From: Flavobacteriales bacterium
GTDB taxonomy: Bacteria > Bacteroidota > Bacteroidia > Flavobacteriales_E > Vicingaceae
Length of the DNA stretch: 64,000 nt
Direction: 5' to 3'
Assembly (NCBI GenBank): GCA_020435335.1
Contig: JAGQZT010000019.1
Span: 1-64,000, forward strand
A program made the position numbers and the translations under genes. The notes beneath the pieces were generated by a model. It had not been told where the DNA came from, searched no databases, and saw only the letters and a list, made by a program, of their open reading frames with translations. This document shows, piece after piece, positions 29,791-37,150 of this stretch (position 1 is the first letter of the stretch; every line of letters begins with the position of its first letter).

Positions 29791-30798
29791 TTATAAGGAA
29801 TTAATATAGGCCATGCACAGGTCAATGGTCGCTTCAATGCCTTTTTTGTGGGTACGTTCCGTACCGTGTGAGGCGGCAACACCCATGCCGATCAAACCAA
29901 CTCTAAAATCGTTTCCGGCACGTAAAGCCGCGGAACCATCCGATCCATAGAAAGGGTAAACATCCACTTTGTAAGGGATATTATTTTGTTCGGCCAGATC
30001 AACCAGTTTTTTCCGGAATTCATAATCGTAAGGCCCGCTGCTGTCTTTCGCGCAGATGGAGCAGCTTACTTCGTTGCCCTGGCAATCATCTCCCAGCACA
30101 CCCATATCGATCACTAATAATTCTTCGATGCTATCGGCATAACCTACAGTACCTCCGTGGCCGACTTCTTCGTAATTGGAGAAGAACAGCTCAACAGGCA
30201 CTTCTTTATTGGCTTCTTTGAGCCTGCGAGCCAGCTCGAACTGTACGTAACAACCGGCTTTATTATCCAGAAAACGTGATTTGATGTAACCACTTTCCAG
30301 TTCCTGATACTTCACATCCACACAGATGATATCGCCGACATGGATGCCTAGTTTTTCGACATCTTCAGCCGTATACACTTCTTCGTCAATGCGGATGTGC
30401 ATGTTTTTGGTTGTCCGGGGCGTTTTTTCTTTTTCGTTATTGGCATGAACCGAAGGGTTATCCAATAATATGGTTCCGGTATAGGTCTTGCCGGAATGGG
30501 TAACTACTTTTACATATTCACCTTCGGCACCGGTTAAAGACAGTCCGCCGAGGAGGGAGAATGCCAGCGTGCCGTTTGATTTTATTTTCGAAACAATGGC
30601 GCCAAGGGTATCGACATGGCCGGCAATGGCCAGTTTCGGATTGGGTCCAAGGGCACATTTTACAGCGCCTTTTTTGGTGTATTCGGGTTGGTAGCCATAG
30701 CTGCTCAACAGGTCATAAATGTATTTACAGGCATTGGTCGTATAGCCTGTCGGGGAATCAATGGCAATAAGCTCTTTAAGCGTTTTGTAGTTGTTCAT
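29791..30798 (-). CDS. M42 family metallo-aminopeptidase
   Basis: 335 residues. A cytosolic di-metal aminopeptidase family that forms tetrahedral dodecamers (TET). Metal-binding and catalytic motifs in order: [13 protein letters not shown] (His-x-Asp), [20 protein letters not shown] (Glu pair), [10 protein letters not shown] and [15 protein letters not shown]. It overlaps asd by 23 bases and is followed after two bases by the VOC gene; all three lie in one minus-strand transcript. Peptide specificity cannot be deduced. Confidence 0.92.
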
Positions 30799-31789
30799 GG
30801 TTTACCAGGTTCTTTTCTACTAAATATTCCGCGATCTGAACAGCGTTGGTTGCCGCACCCTTTCTCAGGTTGTCGGTAACGATCCACATGTTCAGGGTAT
30901 TCGGCTGGGATTCGTCACGCCGGATTCGTCCGACAAAAACATCGTCTTTATTGGCAGCGTATAACGGCATCGGATAGGTATTGGTATCGGTGTTATCCTG
31001 CAACACAATTCCATCGGTTTCTTGTAACAACTTACGTACATCAGATAGTTCAAAGTCGTTCTCAAATTCAATGTTTACCGATTCCGAATGGCCTCCGACA
31101 ACAGGAACACGAACGGCGGTAGCGGTAATTCTTAAGCTATCGTCGCGCATGATCTTTTTAGGTTCTTTAACCAATTTCATTTCTTCTTTGGTGTAACCGT
31201 TATCTTCAAAAACATCGCAGTGAGGCAAGCAGTTCTTGTCAATCGGATAAGGATAAGCCATTTCGCCGGTAATGCCTTTTCGTTCGTTTTCCATTTGTTC
31301 CATGGCTTTTACACCGGTTCCTGTAATGGACTGATAGGTGGAAACGATTACGCGTTTGATCCTGTATTTTTGGTGTAACGGATTCATGACCAACACCATC
31401 TGAATCGTCGAGCAGTTTGGATTGGCAATGATCTTATCGGATGGAGTTAATACATCGGCATTGATCTCCGGAACAACCAATTTATGGTTCGGATTCATTC
31501 TCCAGGCCGAAGAATTATCGATCACTGTCGTTCCTGCTTCCGCAAACTTTGGCGCCCACTCCAGTGACGTGTCGCCACCAGCAGAAAAAATGGCAATATC
31601 CGGTTTGGCATTCACAGCATCCTGTAAGCCGACCACTACATATTCCTGCCCTTTAAAAGTAACTTTATTACCAACAGATTTCTCAGAAGCCACCGGAATA
31701 AGCTCCGTAACCGGGAAATTCCGTTCTTCCAAAACCTGTAACATGACGTTGCCAACCATGCCGGTGGCACCAACTACTGCTATTTTCAT
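30776..31789 (-). CDS. asd: Aspartate-semialdehyde dehydrogenase
   Basis: 337 residues from ATG 31789 (MKIAVVGATGMVGNVMLQVL); the open frame runs 69 bases further upstream but the conserved N-terminus fixes the start. It reduces L-aspartyl phosphate to the semialdehyde with NADPH, for lysine/diaminopimelate, threonine and methionine synthesis. NADP motif GATGMVG, catalytic Cys in ANPNCSTIQMV, and substrate-binding EQMENERKGITGE and GHSESVNIEFE. First gene of the asd-M42-VOC run. Confidence 0.96.
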   Translation of the reverse strand: MKIAVVGATGMVGNVMLQVLEERNFPVTELIPVASEKSVGNKVTFKGQEYVVVGLQDAVNAKPDIAIFSAGGDTSLEWAPKFAEAGTTVIDNSSAWRMNPNHKLVVPEINADVLTPSDKIIANPNCSTIQMVLVMNPLHQKYRIKRVIVSTYQSITGTGVKAMEQMENERKGITGEMAYPYPIDKNCLPHCDVFEDNGYTKEEMKLVKEPKKIMRDDSLRITATAVRVPVVGGHSESVNIEFENDFELSDVRKLLQETDGIVLQDNTDTNTYPMPLYAANKDDVFVGRIRRDESQPNTLNMWIVTDNLRKGAATNAVQIAEYLVEKNLVNHEQLQNA

Positions 31790-31932
31790 GTATTTAAAAT
31801 TTATCGGCCAAAAATAGAATAAAAATTGCGGGTTTTCTAAACTACCGGTAAGAATCAATAAGCAGGTTAAGTTATTTTAACTAAATCAGATGCCCTTGTG
31901 ATAAAAAGAAACATTTTGGCTACTTTTATTGC

Positions 31933-34530
31933 ATGCTTAAGCCACTGATACCATTGCTTACCTTGTTGTGCTCCTTTCAATTGGCACAGGCACAATTTAC
32001 CGATGATTTTACCGACGGCGACTTCACGAATAATCCGGCATGGAGTGGCGACAATGGGCTGTTCACCGTTACGGGAGGCGAACTGAACTCACAAAGTCCC
32101 GGCGCAGCGACTTACTACCTGAGTACGGCTTCTACAACGGCCTTAAATGCGCAGTGGGATTTTTATTTTAATCTGAAATTCAGTACTTCCGGCGCAAATT
32201 ATGTCGATGTGTACCTGATGTCTGATGTGGCGAATGTGACCACACCCAACAATGGCTATTTTGTTCGGATCGGAGGAACCACCGATGAAGTTTCGCTATA
32301 CAAGGTTGTCGCCGGAACGCCAACGATCCTGATAGACGGCCCCGACGGCAGCGTAAACAGCAGTACTAACAACCCTTTTGATGTGCGGGTTACCCGTGAT
32401 GCTGCGAACAACTGGACACTTTATTACGATGATGGCGCTGTGAGCGGACTCACCAACTACGGAACGGTGAATGATAATTCGGTAACAACATCCGGTTTCT
32501 TTGGAATTGCCATTACACAATCGTCGGCAGCAAGTCCGGTAAACAACCACTTCTTCGACAATTTCAGCGTAGGGCCTATTGTGGGCGATACTTCCGCTCC
32601 CCAGGTTGATTCGGTGGTTGTGCTCAATGCCAACAATCTCGATGTTTATTTTAATGAACCGGTTGATCTGACTACCAGCCAGACACTGACAAATTACTCG
32701 GTAGACGGAGGTATCGGAAATCCCACTACTGCCAATCGGGATGCACTGGATTCTTCCATCGTTCATTTAGCATTTGCATCATCATTCTCGAACGGGCAAC
32801 CCTATAACCTGACCATCAACAATGTGGAAGATACAGCATCCAATCCCATCAACACGATCGTAGAGCCGTTTACTTATTTGGTGATCATTCCCCCTGTTTT
32901 CGGTGACGTTATGATCAATGAGATTTTTGCGGATCCCACACCACAGATCGGATTACCCAACGTGGAGTATGTCGAATTGTACAATAACTCTAACAACGCC
33001 TTTGTGTTGAATAACTGGCAATTCGTGAACAGCACCACGGCCAAATCGCTGCCCAATAAAGTGTTAGCGCCGAATAGTTATGTTATTCTTTGCAATTTAA
33101 ACGATACGGCCTTGTTCAGTTCTTACGGTGATGTGATCGGCATCAGTTCCTTTGTAGCACTGACCAATGGCGGTGACAGCCTGACGCTCCTCGACAACAA
33201 CAGCAACATAATCGATATCGTAGTTTATAGTGATTCCTGGTATCAGGATGCCGTAAAAGACGACGGCGGTTGGTCGCTCGAACTGATCAACCCCAAACAT
33301 CCTTGCACCAGTGCCAACAACTGGATTGCTTCGACTCATCCCGACGGAGGAACTCCCGGAACCCAAAATTCCGTTTTCGACACCTTGCCGGATACCCAGG
33401 CTCCCAACCTGACGGCCATCAACACCCTTTCAACCACACAAATCCAGGTAATTTTCAATGAAAAAATGGATAGTGCCAGTCTCGCTTCGGCAGTCTATTC
33501 CATCAGTAACGGCATTGCTGTAACCGGAATAACCGTTCATACGAACCTTTCGGAAATAACGCTGGACCTCAATCCGGCCTTGACAACCTCTATCCTCTAT
33601 ACCCTCAACATAACCGGTGCCGGCGATTGTGCCGGAAATGCGTTGGGAAACAATACCGGCCAATTTGCGTTGCCCGAACAAGGCTTGCCCGGCGATCTGG
33701 TGATCAACGAGATTCTATTCAATCCGTTTACCGGCGGATCGGATTTTGTGGAGATCTACAACAACTCGGGTAAATACATCAGCCTCGAAAACTGGAGCCT
33801 GGCCAACCTCGAAAACGATAGCATCGACAATTACAAGACCATTAGCACCATTCCTAAACTGGTTCTGCCGGGCGAGTTTGTGTTGCTTACAAAAGACCCT
33901 CAAAACATTGAGCAAGAGTATATTAATGCTGCTTTGGCGGCCTTCTTGAAAATGGAAACCTTACCCACTTACAACAACGATGAAGGTGATGTTTACCTCA
34001 TCAGCAACCTGAATGCCGTGATCGATGAGGTGCATTACAACGAAGACATGCATTTTGCCTTGCTGAACAGCGTAGACGGTGTTTCTCTGGAACGGATCGA
34101 CTACAACCGTCCGAGTAACGATGTTACCAACTGGCATTCAGCAGCGGAAGATGTCGGGTTTGCTACGCCGGGCTATGAGAATTCCCAATACATGAATACC
34201 AATACCGATGGAGGCGATATTGTGATTGATCCGGAGTCTTTCTCTCCGGATAATGATGGGGTGGATGATGTCGTGAACATTTCCTACAATTTTCCGGAAC
34301 CGGGTTATGTGGCCAACATTGTGATCTATGATGCCAAAGGAAGATTGGTTAGAAACCTGGTTAAGAATGAGTTATTGGGAACTTCAGGAACCTTTAGTTG
34401 GGACGGAACGGCTGACGATAACGAAAAAGGCCGGATCGGGATTTACATCATCTTTGTGGAAGCCTTCGACCTGCAAGGCAATACCAAACACTTCAAAAAG
34501 ACCTGTGTATTAGCCGGAAGGTTGGATTAA
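31933..34530 (+). CDS. Secreted multidomain protein (lamin-tail, Ig-like, FlgD-like)
   Basis: 865 residues with a signal peptide (MLKPLIPLLTLLCSFQLAQA). Domains in order: a lectin/laminin-like sandwich (about 25-205), an SbsA-type Ig module (about 215-318: VVLNANNLDVYFNEPVDLTT), a lamin-tail domain (about 325-460: GDVMINEIFADPTPQIGLPN), a second Ig module (about 490-580), a second lamin-tail domain (about 585-750: GDLVINEILFNPFTGGSDFV) and a FlgD-like Ig end (about 770-862: SPDNDGVDDVV then FSWDGTADD). The end resembles domains found at the C-terminus of T9SS cargo but is not a clear type A or B signal. Probably a surface adhesin or nuclease-associated scaffold. It ends 26 bases before the sigma gene and may be its co-transcribed target. 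Confidence 0.75.
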   Translation: MLKPLIPLLTLLCSFQLAQAQFTDDFTDGDFTNNPAWSGDNGLFTVTGGELNSQSPGAATYYLSTASTTALNAQWDFYFNLKFSTSGANYVDVYLMSDVANVTTPNNGYFVRIGGTTDEVSLYKVVAGTPTILIDGPDGSVNSSTNNPFDVRVTRDAANNWTLYYDDGAVSGLTNYGTVNDNSVTTSGFFGIAITQSSAASPVNNHFFDNFSVGPIVGDTSAPQVDSVVVLNANNLDVYFNEPVDLTTSQTLTNYSVDGGIGNPTTANRDALDSSIVHLAFASSFSNGQPYNLTINNVEDTASNPINTIVEPFTYLVIIPPVFGDVMINEIFADPTPQIGLPNVEYVELYNNSNNAFVLNNWQFVNSTTAKSLPNKVLAPNSYVILCNLNDTALFSSYGDVIGISSFVALTNGGDSLTLLDNNSNIIDIVVYSDSWYQDAVKDDGGWSLELINPKHPCTSANNWIASTHPDGGTPGTQNSVFDTLPDTQAPNLTAINTLSTTQIQVIFNEKMDSASLASAVYSISNGIAVTGITVHTNLSEITLDLNPALTTSILYTLNITGAGDCAGNALGNNTGQFALPEQGLPGDLVINEILFNPFTGGSDFVEIYNNSGKYISLENWSLANLENDSIDNYKTISTIPKLVLPGEFVLLTKDPQNIEQEYINAALAAFLKMETLPTYNNDEGDVYLISNLNAVIDEVHYNEDMHFALLNSVDGVSLERIDYNRPSNDVTNWHSAAEDVGFATPGYENSQYMNTNTDGGDIVIDPESFSPDNDGVDDVVNISYNFPEPGYVANIVIYDAKGRLVRNLVKNELLGTSGTFSWDGTADDNEKGRIGIYIIFVEAFDLQGNTKHFKKTCVLAGRLD

Positions 34531-34556
34531 TTTTTTACAACATTTCCAACCAATTC

Positions 34557-35150
34557 ATGAATTGGTTAGTCTTAATAGATACTATCAAGAACTGGGACAA
34601 CAATAGCATAATAAAAGGGTGTATTAAATTTAACCCTGAAGCACGAAGAATATTGTATGAAAAATATTCCTCGCAGATGTTTAGTATCTGTTTGCGCTAT
34701 GCTAATAATAACAGTGATGTGGAAGACATATTTCAGGAAGGATTTTTCAAGATTTACCAGAATATCGGGCAAGTGAAAAATCCGGAAGCATTGAGTGGCT
34801 GGATTCGAAAAATATTTGTGAATGTAGCGTTGGAATATAATCGGAAAGGGCACTCGTTGCGTGTAGTTATTGACAATGATGCGATAGAAACCTCGAATGA
34901 AACCACCATTAATTCTGCAATTGATAACCTTTCCCTGGAAGAATTGACTACCCTAATTCAGTCACTTCCTACAGGGTGTAAAACAGTTTTCAACATGTAT
35001 GCGGTTGATGGATATTCACACCAAGAAATAGCGGAAGCCCTCGGTATTTCAATTGGAACATCAAAATCCCAATTGTTTGTGGCCAGGCAGATTTTACAGA
35101 AGAAAATAATTATTCATAATCAACCCGTAAATAAAAAGACAGGTAACTAA
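34557..35150 (+). CDS. RNA polymerase sigma factor, ECF type (sigma-70 family)
   Basis: 197 residues. Region 2 (about 30-98) shows YEKYSSQMFSICLRYANNN, DVEDIFQEGFFKIYQNIG and LSGWIRKIFVNVALEYNR. Region 4 (about 130-185) shows LIQSLPTGCKTVFNMYAVDG and HQEIAEALGISIGTSKSQLF. Sigma-3 is absent, as expected for ECF sigmas. It steers RNA polymerase to its own promoters. One base separates it from the next gene, a predicted trans-envelope anti-sigma factor, so the two form a signalling pair. The ATG at 34557 is used; a few N-terminal residues may be surplus. Confidence 0.92.
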   Translation: MNWLVLIDTIKNWDNNSIIKGCIKFNPEARRILYEKYSSQMFSICLRYANNNSDVEDIFQEGFFKIYQNIGQVKNPEALSGWIRKIFVNVALEYNRKGHSLRVVIDNDAIETSNETTINSAIDNLSLEELTTLIQSLPTGCKTVFNMYAVDGYSHQEIAEALGISIGTSKSQLFVARQILQKKIIIHNQPVNKKTGN

Positions 35151-35151
35151 G

Positions 35152-36804
35152 GTGAGCGAAGAGCATAAGAACATAGAATTTGATCACAAAATAAGAGAAC
35201 AGCTTCAGGGATATCACCCCGAAGTGCCTGAGCATCTTTGGCAGCCGATAGAAAATCGGGCAGCCCTGCTGGAAACAGAGCATTTAAGAAAAAAAGTGGG
35301 CTTTTACAGGTGGGCTAGTGCGATATTGATTCTGATCATTGCCGGTGTAATCACGGTTTATGAATGGCCGGATTCAGGTTTAACAGCCTCTAATCAGCAC
35401 CATGAAACCCCGGTTGTAGAGGAACAACCAACGAGGAATAATGATGTAAAAATCCAGGATGTTGAGGAAAAAGAACCGATGCCCAATTCGGAAGAAGAGC
35501 ACTTCGAATCCGGTGAGGACAACCCTAAAAACGAGGAGACAGAACTCAAAGCATCGATTCCGGCCATAGTGAAATACAAAAAACCGGTACAACAACCGGA
35601 TGATGTGCCACAACCTTCAGACCATGAAACATGGAATGGGATTTCGGCCGTAACAGAAAAAACAACGGAGCCGGTTCCTGAAGAGGAACCTTTATTGGGG
35701 TATAACGAAAACATGCCGACAAATAATCCCACACCAGAAGTTTCTTCCGATAACCGCATTCTTACAGCAGAGAATTTCGAAAAAGAAAAGGAAGGCACCA
35801 GGATTGAAGATGCTCAACCGGTAATAACGGAGCAAATAGAAAATGACTTACCGGCAGAAAGTGAAATCATCGGGAAGCCGGCAGAGCAATTAGTCGACCA
35901 AAAAGAAGGTCCGGAAGAACCGCTTACCCTGGAAGAAGAACAAGTAACAGCTCCAACTGAAGAAGAGATTGTGGAAGATATGGATACCATTCCACCGGAT
36001 GTTGAGGAAACATCGGTTGTTCCTGTTGCTCAAAAACATACCGGGAAACTGGCAGCAGCATTACTAATCTACCCGGTGTTGTTACAGACCAAAATAAATG
36101 AAGGGCCGGATTTTGCAAACACAGCGCTGTACGAGCATTCGGCAAAGAAATCCTTGCAATGGAGTCCTTCGGTTATGCTATCGTATAAATTCTCCAAAGC
36201 ACTATCAATCCATATAGGTGTAAGTCAGAGCTCCATAGAACAAGAATATGAAATGTTAAACGTAAGGCCTGCAGACCTTCCCATTTCCATTGATGCCGAC
36301 AACAAAACACTCGAGGTGTACAGCATGCTGGGAACAACTAAAAAGGAAAGCATAAACACCATTGATTTTGCCGGCGATGATGAGGATGATGAAGACCTTG
36401 ATGATGAGGATGATTTCGCCAACCTGAATTACAAAGAAAGCTACGCCTTTAGCTATATCCATGTGCCCATTACTGTCGGCTATGAATTTGGCCAGGGAAA
36501 ACTGAAAGCCATCGGATTGATTGGGACCAACATGACGTTTGTGAGAAAATCACACTCGATCATTGAGCTGTCAAACGCTTCAAAATCCACCGATATCGCA
36601 ACCATAGAGGATTATCATCAAACTAAATCCACCATGGTGGGGCTTACAATGGGTATAGGACTCAAATACTCCATTAGTAATGCTTTTTCTGCTGTATTTG
36701 TTCCTCAGTACAATTATTCCATTTCCAATATGGTAACGACGGGAAGCTCTTCCATAAAGCCTCATTCGTTGGCATTTCCTTTCGGGGTGCAATATAATTT
36801 TTAA
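35152..36804 (+). CDS. Predicted dual-membrane-spanning anti-sigma factor (anti-sigma + linker + outer-membrane barrel)
   Basis: 550 residues from GTG 35152. Residues 1-45 are cytosolic and contain FDHKIREQLQGYHPEVPEHL followed by W, a short motif seen in anti-sigma-like N-termini of the phylum. Residues about 50-70 form one transmembrane helix (WASAILILIIAGVITVYEW). Residues about 72-310 are a disordered Pro/Glu-rich linker with many E, P and T. Residues about 315-550 are beta-rich with alternating hydrophobics and end FPFGVQYNF, as outer-membrane barrels do. A very acidic loop lies at about 407-423 (GDDEDDEDLDDEDD). This layout matches the dual membrane-spanning anti-sigma factors (Dma) described in Bacteroides. 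The preceding ECF sigma is the expected partner. Spanning both membranes is inferred from sequence. Confidence 0.75.
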   Translation: MSEEHKNIEFDHKIREQLQGYHPEVPEHLWQPIENRAALLETEHLRKKVGFYRWASAILILIIAGVITVYEWPDSGLTASNQHHETPVVEEQPTRNNDVKIQDVEEKEPMPNSEEEHFESGEDNPKNEETELKASIPAIVKYKKPVQQPDDVPQPSDHETWNGISAVTEKTTEPVPEEEPLLGYNENMPTNNPTPEVSSDNRILTAENFEKEKEGTRIEDAQPVITEQIENDLPAESEIIGKPAEQLVDQKEGPEEPLTLEEEQVTAPTEEEIVEDMDTIPPDVEETSVVPVAQKHTGKLAAALLIYPVLLQTKINEGPDFANTALYEHSAKKSLQWSPSVMLSYKFSKALSIHIGVSQSSIEQEYEMLNVRPADLPISIDADNKTLEVYSMLGTTKKESINTIDFAGDDEDDEDLDDEDDFANLNYKESYAFSYIHVPITVGYEFGQGKLKAIGLIGTNMTFVRKSHSIIELSNASKSTDIATIEDYHQTKSTMVGLTMGIGLKYSISNAFSAVFVPQYNYSISNMVTTGSSSIKPHSLAFPFGVQYNF

Positions 36805-36849
36805 TCTCATTCCAACCTTTTTGAAATCGGTTCATCTTACTAGTATAAG

Positions 36850-36943: not shown

Positions 36944-37150
36944 ATGAATATGAAAAAGATTGTGTTATTGATTATCATTTCGACCGGTGTCTTTATGACT
37001 TCATGCAGTAAAAAGAGCTGTAAAGAATGTTCCGGTTGCAAAACTTTGCAAAGTGCTACTTTATGTGAAGACGATTTCGAAAAAGCCAGCGATTATAACG
37101 ATCAGGTGGATAATTATGTTTCTGACGGTTGTACCTGTTCCGAAAAATAG
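36944..37150 (+). CDS. Small Cys-rich lipoprotein
   Basis: 68 residues from ATG 36944, or 66 from ATG 36950, which sits better after AAAAGGA. The signal ends FMTSC (lipidated Cys). The mature part has six more Cys in SCKECSGC, TLCEDDFE and GCTCSEK, suggesting disulfides or metal binding. It follows the anti-sigma gene by 139 bases containing a long hairpin and is closed by a clear terminator. No function is known to me; it may be part of the sigma regulon. Confidence 0.7.
   Translation: MNMKKIVLLIIISTGVFMTSCSKKSCKECSGCKTLQSATLCEDDFEKASDYNDQVDNYVSDGCTCSEK

Follow-up and report, generated by a model that had tools for sequence, protein, structure and literature searches.

An ECF sigma factor gene and the adjoining gene for an anti-sigma factor that is predicted, from hydropathy and a structural model, to be inserted as one chain in both membranes at once form, in a member of the Flavobacteriales, a pair that belongs to the known Dma/Reo type. 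We consider it likely that the pair is a cell-envelope switch of this kind, with an autoregulated sigma factor and a lipoprotein as output. This explanation draws on the computed gene pairing, membrane layout, barrel fold prediction, NigD-linked profile homology, repeated promoter-like element and lipoprotein synteny. The pair is encoded in a stretch of 64,000 nucleotides, analyzed in full and hereafter called the window (Table 1), from a metagenome-type assembly (3.0 Mb in 147 contigs) whose closest relatives among named records are all Flavobacteriales MAGs. New here are the CCAACC-N17-TCYTW promoter-like element before the sigma factor and lipoprotein genes; a syntenic lipoprotein that, by sequence comparison, is better conserved than the anti-sigma factor; and, as a candidate sensor, an acidic loop that is specific to the clade and placed by prediction on the outer side of the barrel. 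The firm additions to what is known of the Dma/Reo type are the first two of these, the element and lipoprotein, and the wide occurrence of the family.

Table 1. Features of the sigma/anti-sigma locus, in window coordinates
Feature	Position	Strand	Basis or remark
Promoter-like element 1, CCAACC-N18-TCTTA, upstream of the sigma factor gene, overlapping ATG 34557	34546..34574	+	
ECF sigma factor gene (probable start)	34584..35150	+	Pfam Sigma70_r2/r4_2; start from 10 aligned loci
Dma/Reo-type anti-sigma factor, 550 aa, GTG start	35152..36804	+	
Residues 1-48, predicted cytosolic anti-sigma head, Trp30 and preceding Pro	35152..35295	+	Alignment, model
Residues 49-67, inner-membrane helix	35296..35352	+	Hydropathy; model helix 27-68
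Residues 68-298, disordered Pro/Glu-rich periplasmic tether	35353..36045	+	pLDDT, composition
Residues 299-550, 8-stranded OmpA-like barrel, C-terminal Phe	36046..36801	+	Pfam, AlphaFold2, Foldseek
Acidic loop FAGDDEDDEDLDDEDDFANL, residues 405-424, extracellular loop 2 by topology	36364..36423	+	13 D/E in 18 residues
Promoter-like element 2, CCAACC-N17-TCTTA, upstream of the lipoprotein gene	36812..36839	+	
Cys-rich lipoprotein, 68 aa, likely regulon member	36944..37150	+	Lipobox FMTSC

Structure and spread of the sigma/anti-sigma pair

The sigma factor is a clear ECF protein (Pfam r4_2, 1e-14; r2, 6e-12), and its TAA stop codon (35148-35150) is separated by a single G (35151) from the GTG of the anti-sigma gene (35152), which confirms the coordinates that an earlier note, made from the letters of this DNA, had given for the second open reading frame. 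The sigma factor frame in that note is likewise present, with its start in need of correction: the mechanical open reading frame opens at ATG 34557, and comparison with relatives indicates that the true start is probably ATC 34584. In all ten aligned loci (window position 34584 and L117, L118, L119, L120, L121, L009, L029, L006 and L018), one aligned position holds an Ile codon, ATT or ATC, and the nine relatives have no in-frame ATG, GTG or TTG before the conserved coding start. The aligned segment is coding, given that the differences on codon positions 1, 2 and 3 number 268, 167 and 652, respectively. Because ATG 34557 sits between both boxes of promoter-like element 1 and the relatives lack ATG, GTG or TTG, a non-standard start appears likely. 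The implied leader, about 7-17 bases after the -10-like box, is odd.

The layout of the anti-sigma protein is apparent from hydropathy, composition and an AlphaFold2 model that was computed on an alignment of ten relatives. The first 48 residues are mostly polar, with helices predicted at 3-18 and from 27 onward and with a nearly invariant W30 (39 class-wide rows); they precede the hydrophobic helix 49-67, besides which hydropathy detects no transmembrane segment in the protein. The tether of about 230-245 residues is composed of 11% Pro and 18% Glu, and its pLDDT stays below 50 over 65-295, in agreement with the single membrane helix and Pro/Glu-rich linker of the earlier note. Between residues 299 and 549, the model contains eight strands (299-315, 335-346, 351-371, 425-446, 451-475, 494-507, 512-526 and 544-549; pLDDT mostly 80-92), the best PDB match to which is the OmpA transmembrane domain (Foldseek, E 3e-9). 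Pfam places OMP_b-brl_2 at residues 415-526 (E 3e-6), and the chain ends in VQYNF. The structure prediction that the earlier note had suggested thus yielded its C-terminal barrel ending in Phe rather than a barrel-less C-terminal half, and the predicted barrel, together with the cognate sigma factor, supports the Dma-like architecture. The sigma factor would be bound by residues 1-48. A fused sigma/anti-sigma model of the relative L116, in which the two genes, lying in frame, were read through the TAG stop, gave confident helices with a pTM of 0.46 and Foldseek matches that define no complex.

An alternative to be weighed is that the barrel belongs to an ordinary outer-membrane protein whose N-terminus is a long signal anchor and whose gene adjoins the sigma factor gene by chance; the genome does encode several standalone barrels that fall into the same Pfam family. 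We rejected this explanation, which we regard as highly improbable, on the strength of an adjacency control. From the matches to a profile of the ten relatives, which hits 149 of the 296 genomes of the class (many of the matches being ordinary barrels) and also other classes of the phylum, 40 long-barrel genes were drawn by open-frame length and not by neighbors. An ECF sigma factor gene lies directly upstream of every one of these (40/40), mostly overlapping or a few bases apart, but of none of 19 standalone barrels taken from the same searches or from the own genome. The conserved 48-residue head ahead of the membrane helix also argues against a chance association. Barrel-less proteins with the same head (244-283 residues) are preceded by a sigma factor gene in 7 of 7 cases, as are, immediately, all 6 Dma-like proteins sampled from other classes of the phylum. 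What the barrel, barrel-less, T9SS-tailed and plug-fused versions have in common is the N-terminal head, and all of them are paired with sigma factors. A search for the same pair in related genomes, as the earlier note had proposed, therefore finds it recurring class-wide. The novelty that the note attached to a similar unit in a different lineage was overstated: the unit is present, with profile matches in about half of the class genomes sampled and in other classes, so that such an occurrence is not news in itself. The counts suggest that the pairing of a sigma factor with a two-membrane anti-sigma factor is common across the phylum.

The published Dma layout comprises an N-terminal anti-sigma domain, a transmembrane helix, a tether and a barrel (PMC13088901), and the cognate sigma factor becomes activated when Dma1, Dma2 or Reo is lost (PMC13088901, PMC9308784). 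The pairs Dma1/Das1 and Dma2/Das2 of Bacteroides thetaiotaomicron share with the window pair the anti-sigma head, the single transmembrane helix, the disordered tether, the barrel and the adjacent ECF sigma factor; they differ in their neighbors, which are DUF4858/DUF4943 or the NigD regulon rather than a Cys-rich lipoprotein. The window pair, in contrast, comes from Flavobacteriales, has an acidic outer loop and is not known to have a vesicle or PUL phenotype. EcfO-Reo of Bacteroides fragilis and Phocaeicola vulgatus has the same layout, with lipoproteins in its regulon. In P. vulgatus, the EcfO regulon includes NigD lipoproteins; in the EcfO-Reo system, the sigma factor gene itself rises on activation (PMC9308784, PMC13114119), a self-induction that matches what the promoter-like element of the window suggests. 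The lipoproteins differ, however, and the sigma factors of the NigD-linked pairs form a separate, well-supported clade. The NigD search returned nine class genomes above the family cut-off, and a class-wide Dma profile (A5), built without the named Bacteroides and Phocaeicola Dma and Reo proteins, detects Dma-like proteins in all nine; in four loci, NigD stands beside a sigma/anti-sigma pair, as in the published EcfO-Reo/NigD regulon. Because the window sigma factor groups apart from the NigD-linked ones, in its own clade with seven close relatives (support 99/97), the window pair is related to EcfO-Reo without being its orthologue. The classical single-pass anti-sigma factors RseA and MucA also bind an ECF sigma factor through a short head in the cytosol and have one transmembrane helix, but they lack an outer-membrane barrel and depend on envelope sensors and proteases that are separate proteins. 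FecIR-type cell-surface signaling likewise carries an outer-membrane signal to an ECF sigma factor, through a separate TonB-dependent receptor and anti-sigma factor, whereas in the window protein both are one chain.

The promoter-like element and the lipoprotein

CCAACC-N17/18-TCTTA occurs in two exact copies in the 64 kb window, against 0.09 expected, one before the sigma factor gene and the other before the Cys-rich lipoprotein gene. In the relatives, CCAACCTTT followed by a 17-base spacer and TCYTW is found at two sites, before the sigma factor gene and in the interval that separates the anti-sigma gene from the lipoprotein gene. The presence of the element at both sites, in the window as well as in the relatives, points to autoregulation and a small local regulon. 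The pattern fits with the paired sigma factor regulating its own gene, whereby it would direct transcription from the element. In the whole own genome, the CCAACCTTT form is confined to two places, the lipoprotein site of the window and C17:1939-1967, and the reversed control contains none. Among 52 more distant loci, CAACC precedes the sigma factor gene in 28 (5.7 expected), and about half of the distant sigma factor genes have no obvious CAACC element.

The second site of the own genome (G000:C17:1939-1967; L127) lies 73 bp before another lipoprotein gene, the product of which resembles the lipoprotein encoded directly upstream of the sigma factor gene in L116; the L127 gene is possibly a second regulon member. 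A genome-wide regulon by loose matching was dropped, given that with two mismatches the element shows no excess across the own genome (9 sites versus 19 in the reversed control). In three relatives, a near-match of 29 bases recurs; being internal to a gene on the opposite strand, it was also dismissed.

The syntenic relatives of the lipoprotein are 55-68% identical; the anti-sigma protein, apart from its acidic stretch, is about 30% identical within the clade. The lipoprotein gene follows the pair, sometimes with one intervening gene, in the window as well as in G002, G007, G009, G013, G029, G039 and G042, and most of the additional lipoprotein copies elsewhere in the syntenic genomes lack the element. 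Given the common promoter-like element and the conserved synteny, the lipoprotein is a likely regulon member, as the earlier note had supposed. The large secreted protein with an LTD domain, which had been assigned to the same regulon, was rejected because the element is missing upstream of its gene; this protein is also absent beside the pair in the sigma clade of the window. The asd gene and the gene for the LTD-domain protein lie beside the pair in the window (30776-34530), and three further genera of the family (L099, L122 and L125) likewise have the two genes next to a sigma/anti-sigma pair, with sigma factors that belong to another clade than that of the window.

A putative mechanism and its signal

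At rest, residues 1-48 would retain the ECF sigma factor at the inner membrane, with the disordered tether linking this head to the 8-stranded barrel folded in the outer membrane. The trigger would be a change at the outer membrane. Such a change could be a defect in barrel assembly or damage to the membrane, the signals proposed for Reo, or else binding to the conserved acidic surface loop. This change would be passed along the tether and free the sigma factor, which, with RNA polymerase, would read CCAACC-N17-TCYTW promoters, so that expression of its own operon and of the Cys-rich lipoprotein encoded downstream would rise.

For the signal, we give roughly even standing to the possibility that it is outer-membrane assembly or integrity stress, whereby the tether slackens or is cut, the sigma factor is freed, and the acidic loop is incidental. 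BcpT and bacteroidetocin A, an inhibitor of BamA, both induce the Reo operon (PMC9308784), which points in this direction, as does the divergence of the loops between clades while barrel and head persist; a stress signal does not explain, however, why the acidic stretch is kept in a protein the rest of which is so variable within the clade. The stretch contains 11-13 D/E among 18 residues within the window's clade (13 in the window protein itself), compared to mostly 8 or fewer elsewhere, and is kept in 8 of 10 aligned rows, being weaker in the sister locus L087. Its placement in outer loop 2 assumes a barrel topology with a periplasmic N-terminus. On account of its conservation in the window's clade, this loop is the best candidate for a sensor, probably clade-specific, on the predicted outer face. 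That it binds a ligand, namely divalent cations or cationic peptides, and thereby sets sigma factor release appears somewhat doubtful: the predicted extracellular position, the acidity and the conservation favor such a sensor, but the loop is clade-specific and the AlphaFold2 model confidence there is only about 55-62.

Single-pass anti-sigma factors are often RseP substrates, and rseP (39840; TIGR00054, E 6e-58) lies 3 kb from the pair, so regulated proteolysis via RseP, the possible protease of the earlier note, has to be considered as the release step. We judge it unlikely: the proximity is not conserved, dxr and rseP being near the pair in no relative examined, and RseP is absent from the Dma2 paper.

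Modular relatives of the anti-sigma head

A second pair in the own genome, on contig 111 (G000:C111:33500-38500; L254:1362-3228), consists of a sigma factor and a 434-residue protein with a similar head and helix, followed by two PKD repeats and a T9SS type B sorting domain (CHU_C match, E 2e-8). This T9SS-tailed anti-sigma protein is possibly a sensor of secretion status. A protein of like build is encoded in another family (L273). In six loci (L261, L262, L263, L270, L271 and L274), all with an ECF sigma factor gene directly upstream, anti-sigma heads are fused to SusC/RagA plug-like regions, with VWA domains in addition in L261-L263 and a T9SS type A tail in L263. A narrow literature search found no paper on anti-sigma factors of the T9SS-tailed or plug-fused build. 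In L092, L124, L268 and L272, the head motif is tandemly duplicated before the membrane helix. A different operon of the own genome (G000:C93; L115:248-3372) encodes a sigma factor, a 347-aa probable anti-sigma factor and a protein combining DUF2807 with a barrel, and resembles a split version of the sigma/anti-sigma-barrel arrangement.

We tentatively suggest, as a conjecture that falls short of an even prospect, that the window protein is one branch of a modular system extending through the phylum: a single short anti-sigma head with its membrane helix would be joined to interchangeable envelope reporters, each watching a different outer-membrane process. The reporters would be an OmpA-like barrel, a SusC-type plug with VWA, and PKD repeats with a type IX sorting domain, and the acidic loop of the window's clade would act as a cation or cationic-peptide sensor driving the Cys-rich lipoprotein.

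Signaling from the cell surface to RNA polymerase through one protein chain is unusual, and work on it has so far been limited to a few Bacteroidales of the gut. The pair described here offers a compact non-gut test case in which the promoter-like element is defined, the output is one conserved small lipoprotein, and one loop is a candidate sensor. The T9SS-tailed relatives would make it testable whether Bacteroidota monitor a secretion system through an anti-sigma factor. Taken together, the data suggest that the two-membrane anti-sigma factor is a general device of the phylum.
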